This document shows positions 1 to 13,273 of a stretch of 64,000 nucleotides of DNA, one piece after another (positions within the stretch are counted from its first letter, which is position 1; the number at the start of each line of letters is the position of its first letter). A program made the translations under genes and the position numbers. Below the pieces are notes generated by a model, which worked only from the letters and a program-made list of their open reading frames with translations, was not told where the DNA came from and did no database searches. Source of the stretch: Thermus oshimai DSM 12092 (GTDB taxonomy: Bacteria; Deinococcota; Deinococci; Deinococcales; Thermaceae); assembly GCF_000373145.1 (NCBI RefSeq), contig NZ_KB890614.1, forward strand, positions 158,043 to 222,042, in the 5' to 3' direction.

Positions 1-1352
1 TCCACGATGTAGAAGTAGCCTTCCTCGTCCATGCGGGCCAGGTCGCCGGTGAAGAGCCAGCCGTCTTTGAGGGCGCGGCTGGTTTCGTCGGGGCGGTTCC
101 AGTAGCCTTTCATGACGTTGGGGCCTTTGACGATGAGCTCGCCCACCTCGCCCAGGGGGACCTCCTTCCCCTCCTCGTCCACCACCTTAGCCTCCACGCT
201 GGGGAGGGGCATCCCGATGGAGCCCTTCTTGATCTCCCCCAGCACGGGGTTGGAGTGGGTCACGGGGCTGGCCTCGGAAAGGCCGTAGCCCTCTATGAGC
301 CGGGCCCCGGTGATCTCCTCAAAGCGCTTGGCCACCTCCACGGGCAGGGGCGCGGCCCCGGAGAGGCAGATGCGGATGCTCTTCACGTTGCGCCCTTCAA
401 TCCCCGGGAAGTTGTTGAAGGCCACGTAGAGGGTGGGCACGCCGGGGAAGTGGGTGACCTTGTGCTTCTCAATGGCCTCCACGATGGGGCCGATCTCAGG
501 ACGGGGGAGGAGGACGATCTTGAAGCCCGCGTAGAGGCCGTAGTTCATGGCCACGGTCATGCCGTAGACGTGGAAGAAGGGCAGGGCCCCCAGCATCACC
601 CCCTGGCCGTGCAGGTCCTTGGAGGTGGGGTCCCAGGCGTCGATTTGCAGGACGTTGGCCACCAGGTTCTTGTGGGTGAGCATGGCCCCTTTGGAAACCC
701 CGGTGGTCCCCCCGGTGTACTGGAGGAGGGCCAGGTCCTCGGGGTCCGCGGGGTGGGGGGTGGCGGGGCTGGCCTTGAGGAGCTCGGTGAAGGCGTGGAA
801 CCCCTGGCGTCTGGGGAAGCCCAGGGGGAGCCCATCCCGCTTGGCCTTCAGGGGGTAGAGGAGGTTTTTGGGGAAGGGCAGGTAGTCGCGGATGCCGGTG
901 ACCACCGTGTGCCGGACGGGGGTTTCCCCCTCCACCTCCAGGAAGCGGGGCAGGAGGTGGTCCAGGATGACCAGGTACTCCGCCCCCGCGTCCTTGAGCT
1001 GGTGCCTAAGCTCCCGGGGGGTGTAGAGGGGGTTCACGTTCACCCCCACCGCCCCCGCCATCAGGGCCCCGTAGAAGGCGATGACGAACTGGGGGGAGTT
1101 GGGGAGCATGATGGCCACCCGGTCCCCCGGCTTGACCCCCAGGGCCTTAAGCCCGCCGGCGAAGCGCCGGGCCTCCTCCCACAGGGCGCGGTAGGTGAGG
1201 GTTTTGCCCAGGAAGTCCAGGGCGACCCCATGGGGGTAGCGCCCCGCGCTTTCCTCCAGGATCTTCCACAAGGGGATGGGGGGCACCTGGATCTCCGGGG
1301 GCACGCCGGGGTCGTAGTGCTTTACCCAAGGTTTGGCGCTGGCCGTCTCCAT
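1..1352 (-). CDS. fadD: Long-chain fatty acid-CoA ligase (FadD-like), C-terminus cut by the window edge
   Basis: An AMP-forming acyl-CoA ligase that activates fatty acids with ATP and CoA for beta-oxidation or lipid synthesis. The ATG at 1352 follows a good ribosome site (GGAGGT, 9 bp upstream). About 450 codons are present. The P-loop-like AMP-binding motif YTGGTTGVSKGAM lies near residue 210, EGYGLSEASPV further on, and the adenylation motif GWLFTGDLARMDEEGYFYI is reached just before the window starts. FadD proteins are usually about 550 residues, so some 100 C-terminal residues lie outside. A TATAAA hexamer on the minus strand (1385-1390) may be its -10. The chain length of the substrate cannot be told from sequence. 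Confidence 0.93.
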   Translation of the reverse strand, partial: METASAKPWVKHYDPGVPPEIQVPPIPLWKILEESAGRYPHGVALDFLGKTLTYRALWEEARRFAGGLKALGVKPGDRVAIMLPNSPQFVIAFYGALMAGAVGVNVNPLYTPRELRHQLKDAGAEYLVILDHLLPRFLEVEGETPVRHTVVTGIRDYLPFPKNLLYPLKAKRDGLPLGFPRRQGFHAFTELLKASPATPHPADPEDLALLQYTGGTTGVSKGAMLTHKNLVANVLQIDAWDPTSKDLHGQGVMLGALPFFHVYGMTVAMNYGLYAGFKIVLLPRPEIGPIVEAIEKHKVTHFPGVPTLYVAFNNFPGIEGRNVKSIRICLSGAAPLPVEVAKRFEEITGARLIEGYGLSEASPVTHSNPVLGEIKKGSIGMPLPSVEAKVVDEEGKEVPLGEVGELIVKGPNVMKGYWNRPDETSRALKDGWLFTGDLARMDEEGYFYIV

Positions 1353-8770: not shown

Positions 8771-9469
8771 ATGCAGGTCACGCTCAAGGTGCTCCGGTTT
8801 GACCCCGCCAAGGACCAAAAGCCCCGCTGGGAGACCTACCAGGTGGAGGCCGAGCCCTGGGATCGGGTCCTGGACCTCCTGCACAAGGTCAAGGCCGACC
8901 AAGACGGAACCCTTTCCTTTAGGAGAAGCTGCGGCCACGGCATCTGCGGCTCCGACGCCATGCTCATCAACGGTAAGAACCGCCTGGCCTGCAAGACCCT
9001 GGTCAAGGACCTGGGGCACACCATCACCGTGGAGCCCATCCGGGGCCTGCCGGTGGAGAAGGACCTCATCGTGGACATGGAGCCCTTCTTCGCCGCCTAC
9101 CGGGCGGTGAAGCCCTACCTCATCAACGACGAGCCTCCGCCCCAGCGGGAAAGGCTCCAGTCCCCGGAGGAACGGGAGCGGTTTGACCACGGGACCAAGT
9201 GCATCCTCTGCGCCAGCTGCACCACCAGCTGCCCCGTCTTCTGGGTGAACGGGGCCTACCTGGGCCCCGCGGCCATCGTCCAGGCTCACCGCTTCATCTT
9301 CGACTCCCGGGACCGGGGGAAGAGGGAGCGCTTCAAGGCCTTGGGCTCGGGAAGCGGGGTGTGGCGGTGCCGCACCGCCTACAACTGCACCGAGGCCTGC
9401 CCCCGGGAGATCCCCGTGACCCAGCTCATTGAGGAGGTCAAGCGGGCCATCCTCTTTGACCGGTTCTAG
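8771..9469 (+). CDS. sdhB: Succinate dehydrogenase iron-sulfur subunit
   Basis: The electron-transfer subunit of complex II, 232 residues. The N-terminal plant-ferredoxin-like domain has CGHGICGSDAMLINGKNRLAC for the [2Fe-2S] cluster. The C-terminal domain has CILCASCTTSCPVF and CRTAYNCTEACPREIP for the [4Fe-4S] and [3Fe-4S] clusters. It is the last gene of the sdhCDAB operon: the ATG lies 8 bp after sdhA with GGAGGCGGC upstream, and a hairpin terminator follows the stop. Confidence 0.97.
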   Translation: MQVTLKVLRFDPAKDQKPRWETYQVEAEPWDRVLDLLHKVKADQDGTLSFRRSCGHGICGSDAMLINGKNRLACKTLVKDLGHTITVEPIRGLPVEKDLIVDMEPFFAAYRAVKPYLINDEPPPQRERLQSPEERERFDHGTKCILCASCTTSCPVFWVNGAYLGPAAIVQAHRFIFDSRDRGKRERFKALGSGSGVWRCRTAYNCTEACPREIPVTQLIEEVKRAILFDRF

Positions 9470-9472
9470 GCG

Positions 9473-9520
9473 CCCCGCCGAAGCGAAAGCTTCGGCGGGG
9501 ACCCCAGAAAGGGGTTTGGG
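9473..9520 (+). terminator. Terminator hairpins after the sdh operon
   Basis: A perfect 12-bp stem (9473-9484 with 9489-9500) is closed by a GAAA tetraloop. A second small stem CCCC/GGGG around AGAAA (9502-9514) follows and is trailed by TTTGGG. The first stem has the CCCCGCCG arm that recurs in other terminators of this window. Confidence 0.75.
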
Positions 9521-9562
9521 CGCGCCTTTCCTCCAAGCCCCCTGGGGTGTAGCTGTGGGGCC

Positions 9563-10831
9563 CTAGGGGGTAAGCCGGTGCCGGTCCCGGGGGAAGGCCC
9601 GGGCGTAGCGCACGTTGGGGAGGCCGAGGAGCTTTTGCGTGAGCCGCTCGGCCCCGATGGCGAAGCCCCCGTGGGGGGGCATGCCGTACTTGAAGACCTC
9701 CAGGTACCCCTGGAAGCCCTCGGGGTCCATGCCCTTGGCCTTTAGGCTCTCCAAAAGCTCCTCGTAGCGGTGGATCCGTTGGCCGCCGGAGGTGATCTCC
9801 AGGCCCCGGAAGAGGAGGTCAAAGCCCCGGGTGGTGCCGTCGGGCTCGGGGTGGGTGTAGAAGGGCCTAAGGGCCCGGGGGTACTTGGTGATGAAGAGCC
9901 AGTCCGTGCCCCAGCGGGCCTTGGCGTACTCCCCGAGGAGCCGCTCGGCCTCCTCGGAGAGGTCCTGGCCCACGGGGTAGCCGAGCTCCTCCTTCAGGAT
10001 CCTCCGGGCTTCCTTATGGGTGAGGCGGGGGATGTCTTTGGGGAAGGAGGGCCACTCCGCCCCCAGGAGGCGGATCTCGTCCCCGGCGCCCGTAAGGGCC
10101 TCTTCCAGCATCTCCTGGAGGAGGGCTTCCTCCAGGTCCATGATCTCCTCCTCGCTCCCGATAAAGCCCATCTCCACGTCCAGGGAGAGGTACTCGTTCA
10201 GGTGGCGGCTGGTGTGGTGCTCCTCCATGCGCCACACGGGGGCCACCTCGTAGACCCGCTCAAACACCCCCACCATGATCTGCTTGTAGAGCTGGGGGGA
10301 CTGGGCCAGGTAGGCCCTTTTCTCAAAGTAGTCCACCCCGAAAAGCCCCGACCCCCCTTCCGCCCCGGCGCGCACCACCTTGGGGGTGAAGATCTCCGTG
10401 AAGCCCTGCCGGTCCAAATACCGCCGGAAGCCCCGCACCAGGGCGGCCTGCACCCTGAGGGGGGCGCGGGCCTTCTCCCCCCGTAGGGTCACGTAGCGGT
10501 ACTCCAGGAGGGTGTCGGGGTGGGCCCGCCACTCCTCCTTGGGGATCTCCACCGGGGTGGGCTCCAGGGCGGGGGAGAGGACCTCCAGGGCCTCCGCCTG
10601 GACCTCGAGGCCCCCCGGGGCCTTGGGGCTTTCCACCACCACCCCCCGCACCCTTAGGCTGGACTCGGGTAAGGGGAGCCTCTGCCCCCCGGTCACCACC
10701 TGGACGATGCCCGTCCGGTCCCGGAGGAGGAGGAACTGGATCTTCCCCAAATCCCGCCGCCAGTGCAGGAAGCCCCAAAGCTCCACCTGCTTCCCGATGT
10801 GCTCCTTCAGGTCCTTTACCAGAACGCGCAT
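9563..10831 (-). CDS. aspS2: Aspartyl-tRNA synthetase 2, archaeal-type, probably non-discriminating
   Basis: Charges aspartate onto tRNA-Asp and, if non-discriminating, onto tRNA-Asn for amidation by GatCAB. Its 422 residues match the short archaeal-type AspRS2 of Thermus and lack the inserted domain of the long bacterial enzyme. An N-terminal OB-fold (VELWGFLHWRRDLGKIQF) binds the anticodon. Class II motif 2 is EVAPVWRMEEHHTSRHLNEY and motif 3 is GFAIGAERLTQKLLG near the end. The aspartate pocket region is GGSGLFGVDYFEKRAYLAQS. In Thermus the tRNA-dependent route is the known way to make asparagine. A leader peptide with two Asn codons and a terminator precede the gene, suggesting attenuation. 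Confidence 0.93.
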   Translation of the reverse strand: MRVLVKDLKEHIGKQVELWGFLHWRRDLGKIQFLLLRDRTGIVQVVTGGQRLPLPESSLRVRGVVVESPKAPGGLEVQAEALEVLSPALEPTPVEIPKEEWRAHPDTLLEYRYVTLRGEKARAPLRVQAALVRGFRRYLDRQGFTEIFTPKVVRAGAEGGSGLFGVDYFEKRAYLAQSPQLYKQIMVGVFERVYEVAPVWRMEEHHTSRHLNEYLSLDVEMGFIGSEEEIMDLEEALLQEMLEEALTGAGDEIRLLGAEWPSFPKDIPRLTHKEARRILKEELGYPVGQDLSEEAERLLGEYAKARWGTDWLFITKYPRALRPFYTHPEPDGTTRGFDLLFRGLEITSGGQRIHRYEELLESLKAKGMDPEGFQGYLEVFKYGMPPHGGFAIGAERLTQKLLGLPNVRYARAFPRDRHRLTP

Positions 10832-10845
10832 CTTCCCTCCCTATA

Positions 10846-10896
10846 GCCAAACCCCCCCGGCAAGCGGTGGCCGGGGGGGTCCTCCAGGCCCCCCTG
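10846..10896 (-). promoter_or_regulatory. Candidate transcription attenuator (antiterminator/terminator) before aspS2
   Basis: On the minus strand the 11-bp stem 10880-10870/10861-10851 with an 8-nt loop, followed by TTTGG, is a terminator about 20 bp before the aspS2 ATG. Just upstream, the run GGGGGG (10894-10889) can instead pair with the C run of the terminator's first arm (10879-10874), which would prevent the terminator. The CAGGG that begins this region can also pair with CCCTG in codons 3-4 of the leader peptide. This is the 1:2, 2:3, 3:4 layout of a trp-type attenuator. The T run is short (three T). Confidence 0.7.
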
Positions 10897-10926
10897 TTAG
10901 GCGTTATTCAGGACGGCAGGGCGCAT
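10897..10926 (-). CDS. Leader peptide MRPAVLNNA (putative aspS2 attenuator peptide)
   Basis: A nine-codon open frame starting with ATG at 10926, preceded by GGAGG 5 bp upstream, and ending with TAA directly before the antiterminator run. Residues 7 and 8 are tandem asparagines (AAT AAC); AAT is a rare codon in such a G+C-rich genome. A ribosome waiting for Asn-tRNA would stop there and leave the next segment free to form the antiterminator. The peptide has its own promoter, with -35 and -10 17 bp apart. No homolog search could be run; its role is inferred from the arrangement. Confidence 0.65.
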   Translation of the reverse strand: MRPAVLNNA

Positions 10927-10936
10927 GTTGCCCTCC

Positions 10937-10965
10937 AGTTTAGGGGGCGGCCTCCCCCGCGTCAA
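10937..10965 (-). promoter_or_regulatory. Promoter of the leader peptide-aspS2 unit
   Basis: On the minus strand TTGACG (10960-10965) and TAAACT (10937-10942) are separated by exactly 17 bp. The -10 begins with the TAA stop codon of the upstream 99-residue gene. The predicted start near 10930 leaves only a few bases before the leader peptide ATG. Confidence 0.7.
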
Positions 10966-11239
10966 GCGCCTCCCAGGCCAGGAGGAGCCCGGGGAGGGCC
11001 TCGAGGGGGGCCACGGTGAAGAAGTCCGCCTCCTCCCAGCGCCGCCTGGCCCAGGTGCCGGAAAAGCCCCCAAGGGAGCGCTCCTCCGCCTCCTCCAGGA
11101 GAAGCCGCCGTTTAAGGAGGCGCACGTCCCCCTGGGGGGAGAGGTAGACCCGGAGGAGGAGGCCCCCCCGCCGCTTCTCCCCCACCCAGTAGCCCTCCTC
11201 CTGGAAGACCTCGTAGCCCAGAGCCTCAAGGGCTTCCAT
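10940..11239 (-). CDS. Hypothetical protein, 99 residues
   Basis: I do not recognise this family. The protein is small, soluble, without signal peptide or membrane helix, and alternates short beta-like stretches (YWVGEKRRGGLLLRVYLS, DVRLLKRRLLLEE) with an acidic, Trp-containing C-terminal half. Its ATG overlaps the end of the PLD-like gene by 14 bp, so it is probably translated from the tatD-PLD message. The overlap and matching codon use support a real gene. Its stop codon forms part of the aspS2 leader promoter. Confidence 0.65.
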   Translation of the reverse strand: MEALEALGYEVFQEEGYWVGEKRRGGLLLRVYLSPQGDVRLLKRRLLLEEAEERSLGGFSGTWARRRWEEADFFTVAPLEALPGLLLAWEALDAGEAAP

Positions 11240-12518
11240 CCACCACCTCCAGCTGGTTGGGGTCGTCCAGGACGATCTCGTAATACCCGGCGTAGATCAC
11301 GATCCGCCCCCGGGCCCGCACGGTCTTACCCAGGTAGCTTTGGGGGAAGGGCTGGGCGAAGAGGCCGTAGCTCCGGGGGAAGACCACGAGCCTTAGGTCG
11401 CTTTCCCCCTCCCCGAAGTGGAGGAAGGCCACCGTGCCCCGGTCCTCCACCCGCCGGATGACCCCTTCCACCGTGGCGATGCGGCCGTAGTGCCTGGGGG
11501 CCTCCGTCCAGGGGATGACCCCTTCCAGAGGGGGCAGGGCGAAGGGGTTTTGGGGGAGGGCCTTGGCCCAGTCCCCCTCCATGACCTTGAGGAGCCTCTC
11601 CAGGGCCTCCCCCCGCCCAAGCCGCACGGCAAGCTCCCGGTTGGCGTTCAGGCTGTTGGCGCTCAGGTTGAGGCTCCCCACTAGGGCCTCCTCCCGGTCC
11701 CGCACCAGGACCTTGGCGTGCACGTAGGGGGAGGGGAGGAAGCGTACCTCGGCCCCTGCCGCCTGGAGCTCCAGGGCCCCCGCCAGGAAGTAGGTGTCCC
11801 CCTCCTCCTGGGGGCTACCCAGGAGGCGCACCCTCACCCCCCGCTTCAGGGCGGCCTTCAGGGCCTCGATCACCTCCCGGTCGGCCATGGCCTGGTGCTC
11901 CAGGAACAGTTCCCGCTTGGCCCCCCCGATCATCCCCAGGAGGACCTCCCGGGCGTTTCCCTCCCGCACGCCCCCCAGGGTGCGGCTTGGGGCCCAGACC
12001 AGGCGGGCGCGGCTCAGGTCCAGCCGTTCCCCATTCCAGTCCGCCTGGAAGACCCGGCGGATCTCCCGCACGCTTTCCGGATCGTCCAGGATGAGGGCGT
12101 ACTCCCGGTTGGCGCTGAAGGAACTGCCGGTGAAGTTCATGGTGCCCACCCAGGCCTTCTTCCCGTCCACCACCAGGCTTTTTTCGTGGACGAAGACGAA
12201 GCGGAAGGGTTGGGTGAGCCTCACCTCCACCCCCCGGTCCTTTAGGGCCTGGTAGACGGAGAGGTCCACCCGGCCCCCGGAGGGCTCCCGCTCCAGGAGG
12301 ACCCGCACCTTGACCCCCCGGGCCGCCGCCTGGCCTAAGGCTTCCACCAGGTCCATGCGGCTTGGGGTCCAGAGGTACATCTTCACCAGGATCTCCTCCC
12401 GGGCCTCCCCGATGAGCCCAAGGAGGGGGGCAAGCCCGTCCTCGGGCTCCACCACCAGCCGGGGTGCGGCCAGGGCCAGGCCCAAAAGGGCGAGAAGAAG
12501 GGCAAGGGCGCGCTTCAT
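11226..12518 (-). CDS. Secreted phospholipase D-like protein with C-terminal OB-fold
   Basis: A 430-residue exported PLD-superfamily enzyme. A signal peptide (MKRALALLLALLGLALAAP) is followed by two HxKx4D catalytic motifs, HEKSLVVDG near residue 115 and HAKVLVRDR near 268, which together form one active site for phosphodiester cleavage. The last 90 residues (from IATVEGVIRRVEDRGT) look like a nucleic-acid-binding OB-fold, so a nuclease acting outside the membrane is more likely than a lipase. I chose the ATG at 12518 because it overlaps the tatD stop as ATGA; a GTG at 12527 is the alternative. Confidence 0.85.
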   Translation of the reverse strand: MKRALALLLALLGLALAAPRLVVEPEDGLAPLLGLIGEAREEILVKMYLWTPSRMDLVEALGQAAARGVKVRVLLEREPSGGRVDLSVYQALKDRGVEVRLTQPFRFVFVHEKSLVVDGKKAWVGTMNFTGSSFSANREYALILDDPESVREIRRVFQADWNGERLDLSRARLVWAPSRTLGGVREGNAREVLLGMIGGAKRELFLEHQAMADREVIEALKAALKRGVRVRLLGSPQEEGDTYFLAGALELQAAGAEVRFLPSPYVHAKVLVRDREEALVGSLNLSANSLNANRELAVRLGRGEALERLLKVMEGDWAKALPQNPFALPPLEGVIPWTEAPRHYGRIATVEGVIRRVEDRGTVAFLHFGEGESDLRLVVFPRSYGLFAQPFPQSYLGKTVRARGRIVIYAGYYEIVLDDPNQLEVVDGSP

Positions 12519-13273
12519 AGGGACCACCGGAAAAGCCCCTCGGCGTTCCTGTCCGTGAGGGCCTCCGCCTCCTCAAAGCTTACCCCAAGGCTTTCCGCCA
12601 GGCGAAAGAGGGTGTGGCGCACGTAGTGGGGGCGGTTCCTTTGGCCCCGAAAAGGCTCCGGGGGGAGGAAGGGGGTGTCCGTTTCCACCAGGAGCTTTTC
12701 CCGGGGGAGCCTCCTCGCCGCCTCCCGGAGGGCCCCGTTCTTCTTGTAGGTGAGGGGGCCGGCGAAGCTGAAGTAAGCCCCCGTCTCGAGGCCGGCCCTC
12801 TCCAAGGCGGGGTGCCCGGAGAAGGCGTGGAGCACCGCCTTCTTGGGCCGGTTTTGGAGGAGCCACTCCGAGAGGTCTTCCTCCGCCTTTCCGTCCCTGC
12901 TCCGCACGTGGAGGACCAGGGGAAGGCCGAGCGCTTCCGCCAGGGCCGCCTGGAAGTCCAGGGCCCGGTACTGGGCGGGCCCGGTCTCGGGGGTCCAGTA
13001 GTAGTCCAGGCCCGTTTCCCCGATGGCCCGCACCCGCGGGTGGCGGGCGTAGTGCCTCAGGGCCTCCTCCACCTCCGGGGAGAGGAGGTGGGCGGAGGTG
13101 GGGTGGAGGCCCACCGCGGCGTAGACGTTGCCCTGGGCCAGGGCTAAGGTCCGTTCCCAGCGGGCGGGGTCCACCCCCAGGGTGAGGACGGCCCTGAGCT
13201 CCGGGAGATGGGCCTGGGCCTCCTTAAGCTCCTCGGGTTCCAGGAAGTCCAGGTGGGCGTGGGTGTCGGTCAC
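12515..13273 (-). CDS. tatD: TatD family metal-dependent deoxyribonuclease
   Basis: A TIM-barrel metal-dependent hydrolase of 252 residues; family members are 3'-5' DNA exonucleases. Metal ligands are DTHAHLD at the N-terminus, the Glu in AIGETGLDYYW near residue 88, His in VLHVRSRD near 126, His in LHAFSGH near 148, and Asp in LVETDTPFLPPEP near 200. The GTG at 13273 gives the standard N-terminus; longer ORF forms read through a noncoding region. It is the first gene of an operon with the exported PLD-like protein (ATGA overlap) and the 99-residue unknown. Confidence 0.93.
   Translation of the reverse strand: MTDTHAHLDFLEPEELKEAQAHLPELRAVLTLGVDPARWERTLALAQGNVYAAVGLHPTSAHLLSPEVEEALRHYARHPRVRAIGETGLDYYWTPETGPAQYRALDFQAALAEALGLPLVLHVRSRDGKAEEDLSEWLLQNRPKKAVLHAFSGHPALERAGLETGAYFSFAGPLTYKKNGALREAARRLPREKLLVETDTPFLPPEPFRGQRNRPHYVRHTLFRLAESLGVSFEEAEALTDRNAEGLFRWSL

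Follow-up and report, generated by a model that had tools for sequence, protein, structure and literature searches.

The aspS2 gene of this Thermus genome is most probably controlled by ribosome-mediated transcription attenuation responsive to charged tRNA-Asn and, in relatives, also to charged tRNA-Asp, a reading to which we give a probability of roughly 0.87 on comparative sequence grounds. The Asn/Asp leader appears to be a real attenuator of aspS2 that extends across the class; its mechanism is known in kind, and the present instance seems to be undescribed. As the earlier note had supposed, no account was found in the literature on Asn/Asp or aspS2 leaders in Thermus or Deinococcus, and the main text of a survey of premature terminators contains neither Thermus, Deinococcus nor aspS (PMC2965389). 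Likewise, no description of how the Thermus AspRS2/GatCAB asparagine route is regulated was found in the literature. If the reading is true, the cell gauges charged tRNA-Asn and tunes the enzyme that starts its supply, and it does so in a genetically tractable thermophile. The leader would further show attenuation operating on a near-leaderless mRNA with just two hairpins, a minimal design conserved throughout a bacterial class, and it hints at a wider group of such switches before amino-acid genes.

The promoter, nine-codon frame, Asn codons, stop, G run and 11-bp stem that had been recognized before aspS2 all occur on the minus strand of the window (the whole stretch of 64,000 nt that was analysed). 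A promoter scan places the -35 element TTGACG at 10960-10965 (TTGACC in all other Thermus) and, after a 17-bp spacer, the -10 element TAAACT at 10937-10942; this is the sole promoter-like match within 9000-13000, where shuffled sequences average 0.2. TTGAC with 17/18-bp spacing is kept in every leader-bearing clade, and the distance from the -10 box to the leader ATG is 7-11 nt in nearly all relatives. Because the -10 box ends at 10937, the mRNA is expected from ~10930, which makes the leader near-leaderless. The predicted transcription start, placed from the -10 position, falls in the (C)AAC directly 5' of the ATG (10928-10930), where CAA(C/T)ATG is kept among Thermus relatives, and the conserved promoter likewise predicts a start near 10930. 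A 5'UTR of ~2-4 nt would fit the tendency of the phylum to place -10 boxes close to start codons, a leaderless pattern (PMC12340547). The GGAGG that had been listed among the leader elements does exist (10936-10932), but its place, downstream of the -10 box and ahead of the likely start, probably puts it outside the mRNA; it is absent in other Thermus, which have TTAGGCCCAACATG or TTAACCCCAACATG in its place. The -10 element overlaps the stop codon of an upstream ORF of 99 residues (10940-11239, minus strand) that has no NCBIfam match and is preceded by a phospholipase-D-like gene. The sequence 5' of the promoter varies between Thermus species, and thus the leader travels with aspS2.

The leader ORF, identified from the sequence and its conservation, spans 10897-10926 with its ATG at 10926 and encodes MRPAVLNNA (ATG CGC CCT GCC GTC CTG AAT AAC GCC TAA, with the TAA at 10899-10897). 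Its putative sensor codons are the Asn-Asn pair at 10903-10908, namely AAT (10908-10906) and AAC (10905-10903), and most Thermus have N-N or N-D here. The dinucleotide CA separates the TAA from the G run GGGGGG (10894-10889), which is conserved in all Thermus and would form the 5' arm of an antiterminator hairpin, GGGGGGCC-TGGA-GG-A-CCCCCC (10874-10894), a structure indicated by folding energy and by covariation in family f5 and, weakly, f4. The proposed helix between the G run and the C run of the first terminator arm holds up at -15.6 kcal/mol at 37 C (GGGGGGCC/GG-CCCCCC), with comparative support beyond Thermus. The terminator hairpin (10851-10880), indicated by folding energy and by covariation in Meiothermus-like genera, consists of 11 bp between the arms 10880-10870 and 10861-10851 with an 8-nt loop (-25.9 kcal/mol at 37 C), followed by TT and then GG. 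The two hairpins have the C arm in common and are mutually exclusive. By inspection, the Shine-Dalgarno region of aspS2 is the GGGAGGG at 10835-10841, and the gene itself occupies 9563-10831 (minus strand, ATG at 10831).

The aspS2 product is a non-discriminating, archaeal-type aspartyl-tRNA synthetase (AspRS2), which matches PDB 1n9w (the T. thermophilus AspRS2) with 862 bits and passes the cut-offs of the NCBIfam models TIGR00458 (aspS_nondisc) and NF003483 (aspartate--tRNA(Asn) ligase). In T. thermophilus, the second AspRS and GatCAB make asparagine on tRNA-Asn (PMC4206432). GatB is found in 101 of the 111 genomes searched, this genome included, and a search for AsnB-type asparagine synthetases detected none here or in 26 of 27 Thermus genomes. 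AsnRS and AspRS1 are present in nearly all genomes, again including this one, so that Asn-tRNA has a second source when free asparagine is available.

We propose the following course of events, in which promoter use, stalling, termination and the direction of regulation are inferred. Transcription would begin 2-4 nt 5' of the leader ATG, and a ribosome would start on the near-leaderless peptide. When Asn-tRNA is plentiful, the ribosome would reach the stop codon and its footprint would hide the G run; the C run would then pair with the downstream GGGGGGG, and the resulting GC hairpin would stop transcription before aspS2. When Asn-tRNA is scarce, the ribosome would stall once the first Asn codon occupies its A site, its leading edge then being just short of the G run, so that the G run and the C run could pair, the terminator would be blocked and aspS2 would be transcribed. 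The extra AspRS2 would supply more Asp-tRNA-Asn to GatCAB and thereby restore Asn-tRNA through what appears to be the sole visible route to asparagine in this genome. Such a rise of AspRS2 upon undercharging of tRNA-Asn would close a negative feedback loop.

The conservation of the parts, codons, spacing and stems, together with the identities of the genes, can be read from the DNA itself and supports, at that level, the attenuator reading of the earlier note. DNA upstream of aspS2 was fetched from relatives, and the class search covered 111 genomes of five families, none of them confirmed Deinococcaceae (families and genera are denoted f1-f5 and g1-g31; g1 is Thermus, and g4 is taken to be 'Meiothermus-like'). 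The recommended check for the peptide and its Asn codons in related genomes came out in favour: a promoter (class pattern TTGAC-17/18-TANNNT) and a short frame of the same layout precede aspS2 in 87 of the 89 loci examined, comprising 27/27 Thermus genomes, 23/23 genomes from the rest of the family and the majority of loci in the other families. No leader was found upstream of aspS2 in G053, and the relation of the frame in G110 to the other leaders is not clear. The G109 locus is truncated by a contig end, yet RDDDN is readable in it, and six leaders (G018, G025, G037, G049, G090 and G110) show a single clear sensor codon or none. In the single-contig Thermus genome G008, the aspS2 match (G008:C1:1161561-1162825; L027, L028) is split into overlapping frames (residues 1-229 and 225-422) by a frameshift or a sequencing error, and the leader is intact.

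The leader peptides are exemplified by MRPAVLNNA, MCPRSLNNA, MRLPQGNDA and MRPRLRNNER in Thermus, MLRADDNL and MLRTDNNS in the Meiothermus-like group, MRWARNNNA and MRGLLNNDR in f4, MKCFFNNSADDDN in f3 and MTHLAFSDDNSGSGRLGA in f5. Asn/Asp codons stand side by side in 78 of 87 leaders, against ~2-4% expected for a random peptide of similar size; few loci had more than one frame behind the promoter, and there the frame richer in Asn/Asp was chosen. Asn and Asp together account for 23% of the amino acids that distinct Thermus leaders encode versus ~6% in genes, and Asn alone for 13.6% of residues in distinct leaders of all clades versus 1.7% in Thermus genes. The rare codon choice points in the same direction, with ordinary-gene usage taken from the window and the fetched loci: AAT makes up 8 of 34 Asn codons in distinct Thermus leaders versus 15 of 641 in genes (p 5e-6, leader p values being optimistic because the leaders are kin by descent), and 23 of 28 versus 4 of 83 in the Meiothermus-like genera. 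Asn sensing as originally put forward is consistent with the Asn codons of Thermus, but 'asparagine only' was too narrow outside Thermus, as relatives use Asp codons too. A link between Asp codons in the leader and the absence of AspRS1 or AsnRS was rejected, both enzymes being present in nearly all genomes regardless of the leader.

Queuosine occupies the wobble position of the tRNAs for Asn, Asp, His and Tyr, all of them readers of NAY codons. A leader that senses this modification instead of charging would accommodate the facts that every sensor codon is NAY, that AAT and GAT require wobble reading and that His or Tyr stands beside Asn in a few leaders (G025 HN, G040 DNY, G042 DNNY). Queuosine sensing is nevertheless highly improbable, given that the sensed residues are almost exclusively Asn and Asp, which correspond to the two products of AspRS2, and that no part in queuosine synthesis is known for aspS2.

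The distances within the leader are also those that ribosome-mediated attenuation would call for. The gap between the first sensor codon and the antiterminator arm measures 11-15 nt for 26 of the 27 Thermus; most loci of g2-g4 and f4 have 15-16 nt, and most of those in f5 have 16-24 nt. In G006, G010 and G026 the stop comes one codon later, and the G run is still 15 nt from the first Asn. Toeprinting places the edge of the ribosome footprint 15 nt past the first P-site base, and our footprint model assumes that the ribosome reaches +15 from that base. According to the model, the antiterminator arm is 93-100% free on average in the seven clades when the first sensor codon is in the A site, and it is 100% covered in all seven when the ribosome is at the stop codon; the count omits G032, G065, G092, G104 and G110, where another helix was picked as the antiterminator or the sensor is unclear. 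The arm of f5 lies within the ORF, whose end encodes Leu-Gly-Ala-stop as CTCGGGGC (CTC GGG GCN), a layout that differs from the others yet, judging from the modelled footprint, obeys the same rule. Neither this spacing nor the Asn/Asp codons and the AAT enrichment would be predicted if the leader ORF served as a coupling or reinitiation device of a general kind, boosting aspS2 translation with no amino-acid sensing. Close leader genes with this proposed role are frequent in numerous phyla, Deinococcus-Thermus among them, but the effect peaks at 10-11 bp from stop to start (PMC4833913), whereas the leader stop and the aspS2 start are here 65 nt apart with a stable hairpin between them, and we regard such a device as a very unlikely explanation.

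Taken from this genome alone, the pairing of G run and C run is not beyond chance (shuffle p ~0.25), and single-genome pairing is weak evidence because GC-rich DNA pairs easily. Short ORFs and G/C runs are moreover frequent in a GC-rich genome, and the whole arrangement could on that account be a coincidence; the order of the parts, the codons and the spacing are, however, alike in 87 loci of five families with differing sequences, so that coincidence is hardly credible, and the comparative evidence lifts the leader far above chance. Since the C arm is common to both structures, the antiterminator arm and the 3' arm of the terminator must co-vary, and across clades they do. The antiterminator of f5 covaries at three pairs changed on both sides, with 0 of 500 shuffles scoring as high, and so do three pairs of the g2-g4 terminator (again 0/500). 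The f5 helix takes such forms as CTCGGGG/CCCCGAG, TTGGGGT/ACCCCAA, GCTTCGGG/CCCGAAGC and CCCGGGG/CCCCGGG. Covariation in f4 is suggestive for the antiterminator (46 of 500 shuffles as high) and likewise for the terminator. The stem covariation that the earlier note had hoped to see is thus found outside Thermus; within the genus the terminator stem is invariant and the comparison uninformative, the evidence coming from other genera.

A protector hairpin is typical of attenuators of the trp/his kind and is dispensable in compact ones. The CCCTG:CAGGG pairing that had been pointed out can form, with energies of -4.7 kcal/mol at 37 C and -0.6 at 65 C, yet it is not conserved. In no clade do leaders pair with their own antiterminator arm better than mismatched leaders do, and the pairing is weak in g4. 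Of the classic three-way attenuator originally described, the antiterminator/terminator pair therefore stands, while a conserved 1:2 protector hairpin does not.

A hairpin is found in nearly all loci, with 4-6 T after the stem in most relatives and few T in Thermus. That of the window is trailed by TTTGG only, and the terminator scan misses it because the T run is short. Long GC hairpins with T-poor downstream sequence, common to convergent genes, are seen at Thermus gene ends (e.g. window 9472-9500), and 9 of 20 hairpins at convergent gene ends, from the window and ten other Thermus loci, have 0-1 T in eight bases. The missing U tract thus looks like a habit of the genus and need not argue against termination. 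It would also be expected if the hairpin acted on translation or RNA stability, the stalled ribosome remodelling the leader and exposing the aspS2 start, and a long-range helix in some relatives, between leader codons 2-5 and a stretch before the aspS2 Shine-Dalgarno site, fits such action. Against it stand the canonical terminators with 4-6 T at the equivalent place in relatives, the normality of T-poor hairpins at Thermus gene ends and the position of the aspS2 Shine-Dalgarno site outside the hairpin, and we consider control at translation or stability in place of transcription attenuation unlikely.

The long-range helix, whose 3' side lies between the terminator and the Shine-Dalgarno site, can form in g14 (f4) and in g3/g4 (loci L084, L086, L080 and L087, plus those of g3/g4), with matching changes in G066 (TGGGCCCG/CGGGCCCA), G068 (TGGGGCCG/CGGCCCCA) and G047 (TGGACGG/CCGTCCA). 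Own pairs beat mismatched ones in 2000 of 2000 permutations in g2-g4 and 1996 of 2000 in f4, figures that are inflated by shared ancestry, and the same permutation test gave no clear own-pair advantage in Thermus or f5. Being downstream of the termination decision, the helix would act on translation or stability.

Leader-peptide attenuation is known for the trp, his, leu, thr and ilv operons, and E. coli pheST is a case involving an aminoacyl-tRNA synthetase. The aspS2 leader resembles the attenuators of amino-acid operons in its codons for the sensed amino acid, its mutually exclusive antiterminator and terminator and its use of ribosome position as the switch; it differs in that Asn and/or Asp is sensed, in having no conserved 1:2 protector, in being near-leaderless with no Shine-Dalgarno site of its own, and in its compactness (~80 nt). 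T-box riboswitches, which in Firmicutes include regulators of asparagine genes, likewise respond to tRNA charging and frequently govern tRNA synthetases, but they bind uncharged tRNA directly and have no leader peptide. An Rfam 15 search of the window, with the T-box covariance model included, matched no family.

Within the genus, leader-peptide attenuation of the T. thermophilus lysine cluster was reportedly described by Tsubouchi et al. (J Biol Chem, 2005). That system shares with the aspS2 leader both genus and kind of control, and differs in serving a biosynthetic operon and lysine, where the aspS2 leader has a tRNA synthetase and Asn/Asp codons. In the present genome, short frames followed by a hairpin also precede homocitrate synthase (MLAREKKLGRRGVG, with Lys-Lys and an aspS2-like promoter layout), lysJ (MSARGKT), DAHP synthase (MRTLGCPFGFYRPGGGALRPA, with Phe and Tyr), acetolactate synthase (ilvB; MRSGLALSLALVLIVGPAGGRA, with Leu, Val and Ile) and leuC (MRRAVILVLDRAGPV). 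These five leaders (L118, L119, L127, L128 and L136) are near-leaderless, have codons that mostly fit and, to judge from their sequences, likely form a set of leader-peptide attenuators in this Thermus; by analogy, the reported lysine-cluster attenuation beside the homocitrate synthase and lysJ leaders may serve as a lead to a wider set. A broader proposal, which we put forward tentatively and at less than even odds, is that the class-wide attenuator reads both Asp-tRNA and Asn-tRNA, the two products of the dual-specificity synthetase, and so sets the flow into tRNA-dependent asparagine synthesis, that some genera add the long-range helix between leader and ribosome-binding site for translational control, and that the whole belongs to a broader set of near-leaderless attenuators for amino-acid genes of the Deinococci. 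The pattern TTGAC-(16..19)-TANNNT-(6..11)-ATG occurs at 20 sites in this genome, and the reversed control pattern at 0.
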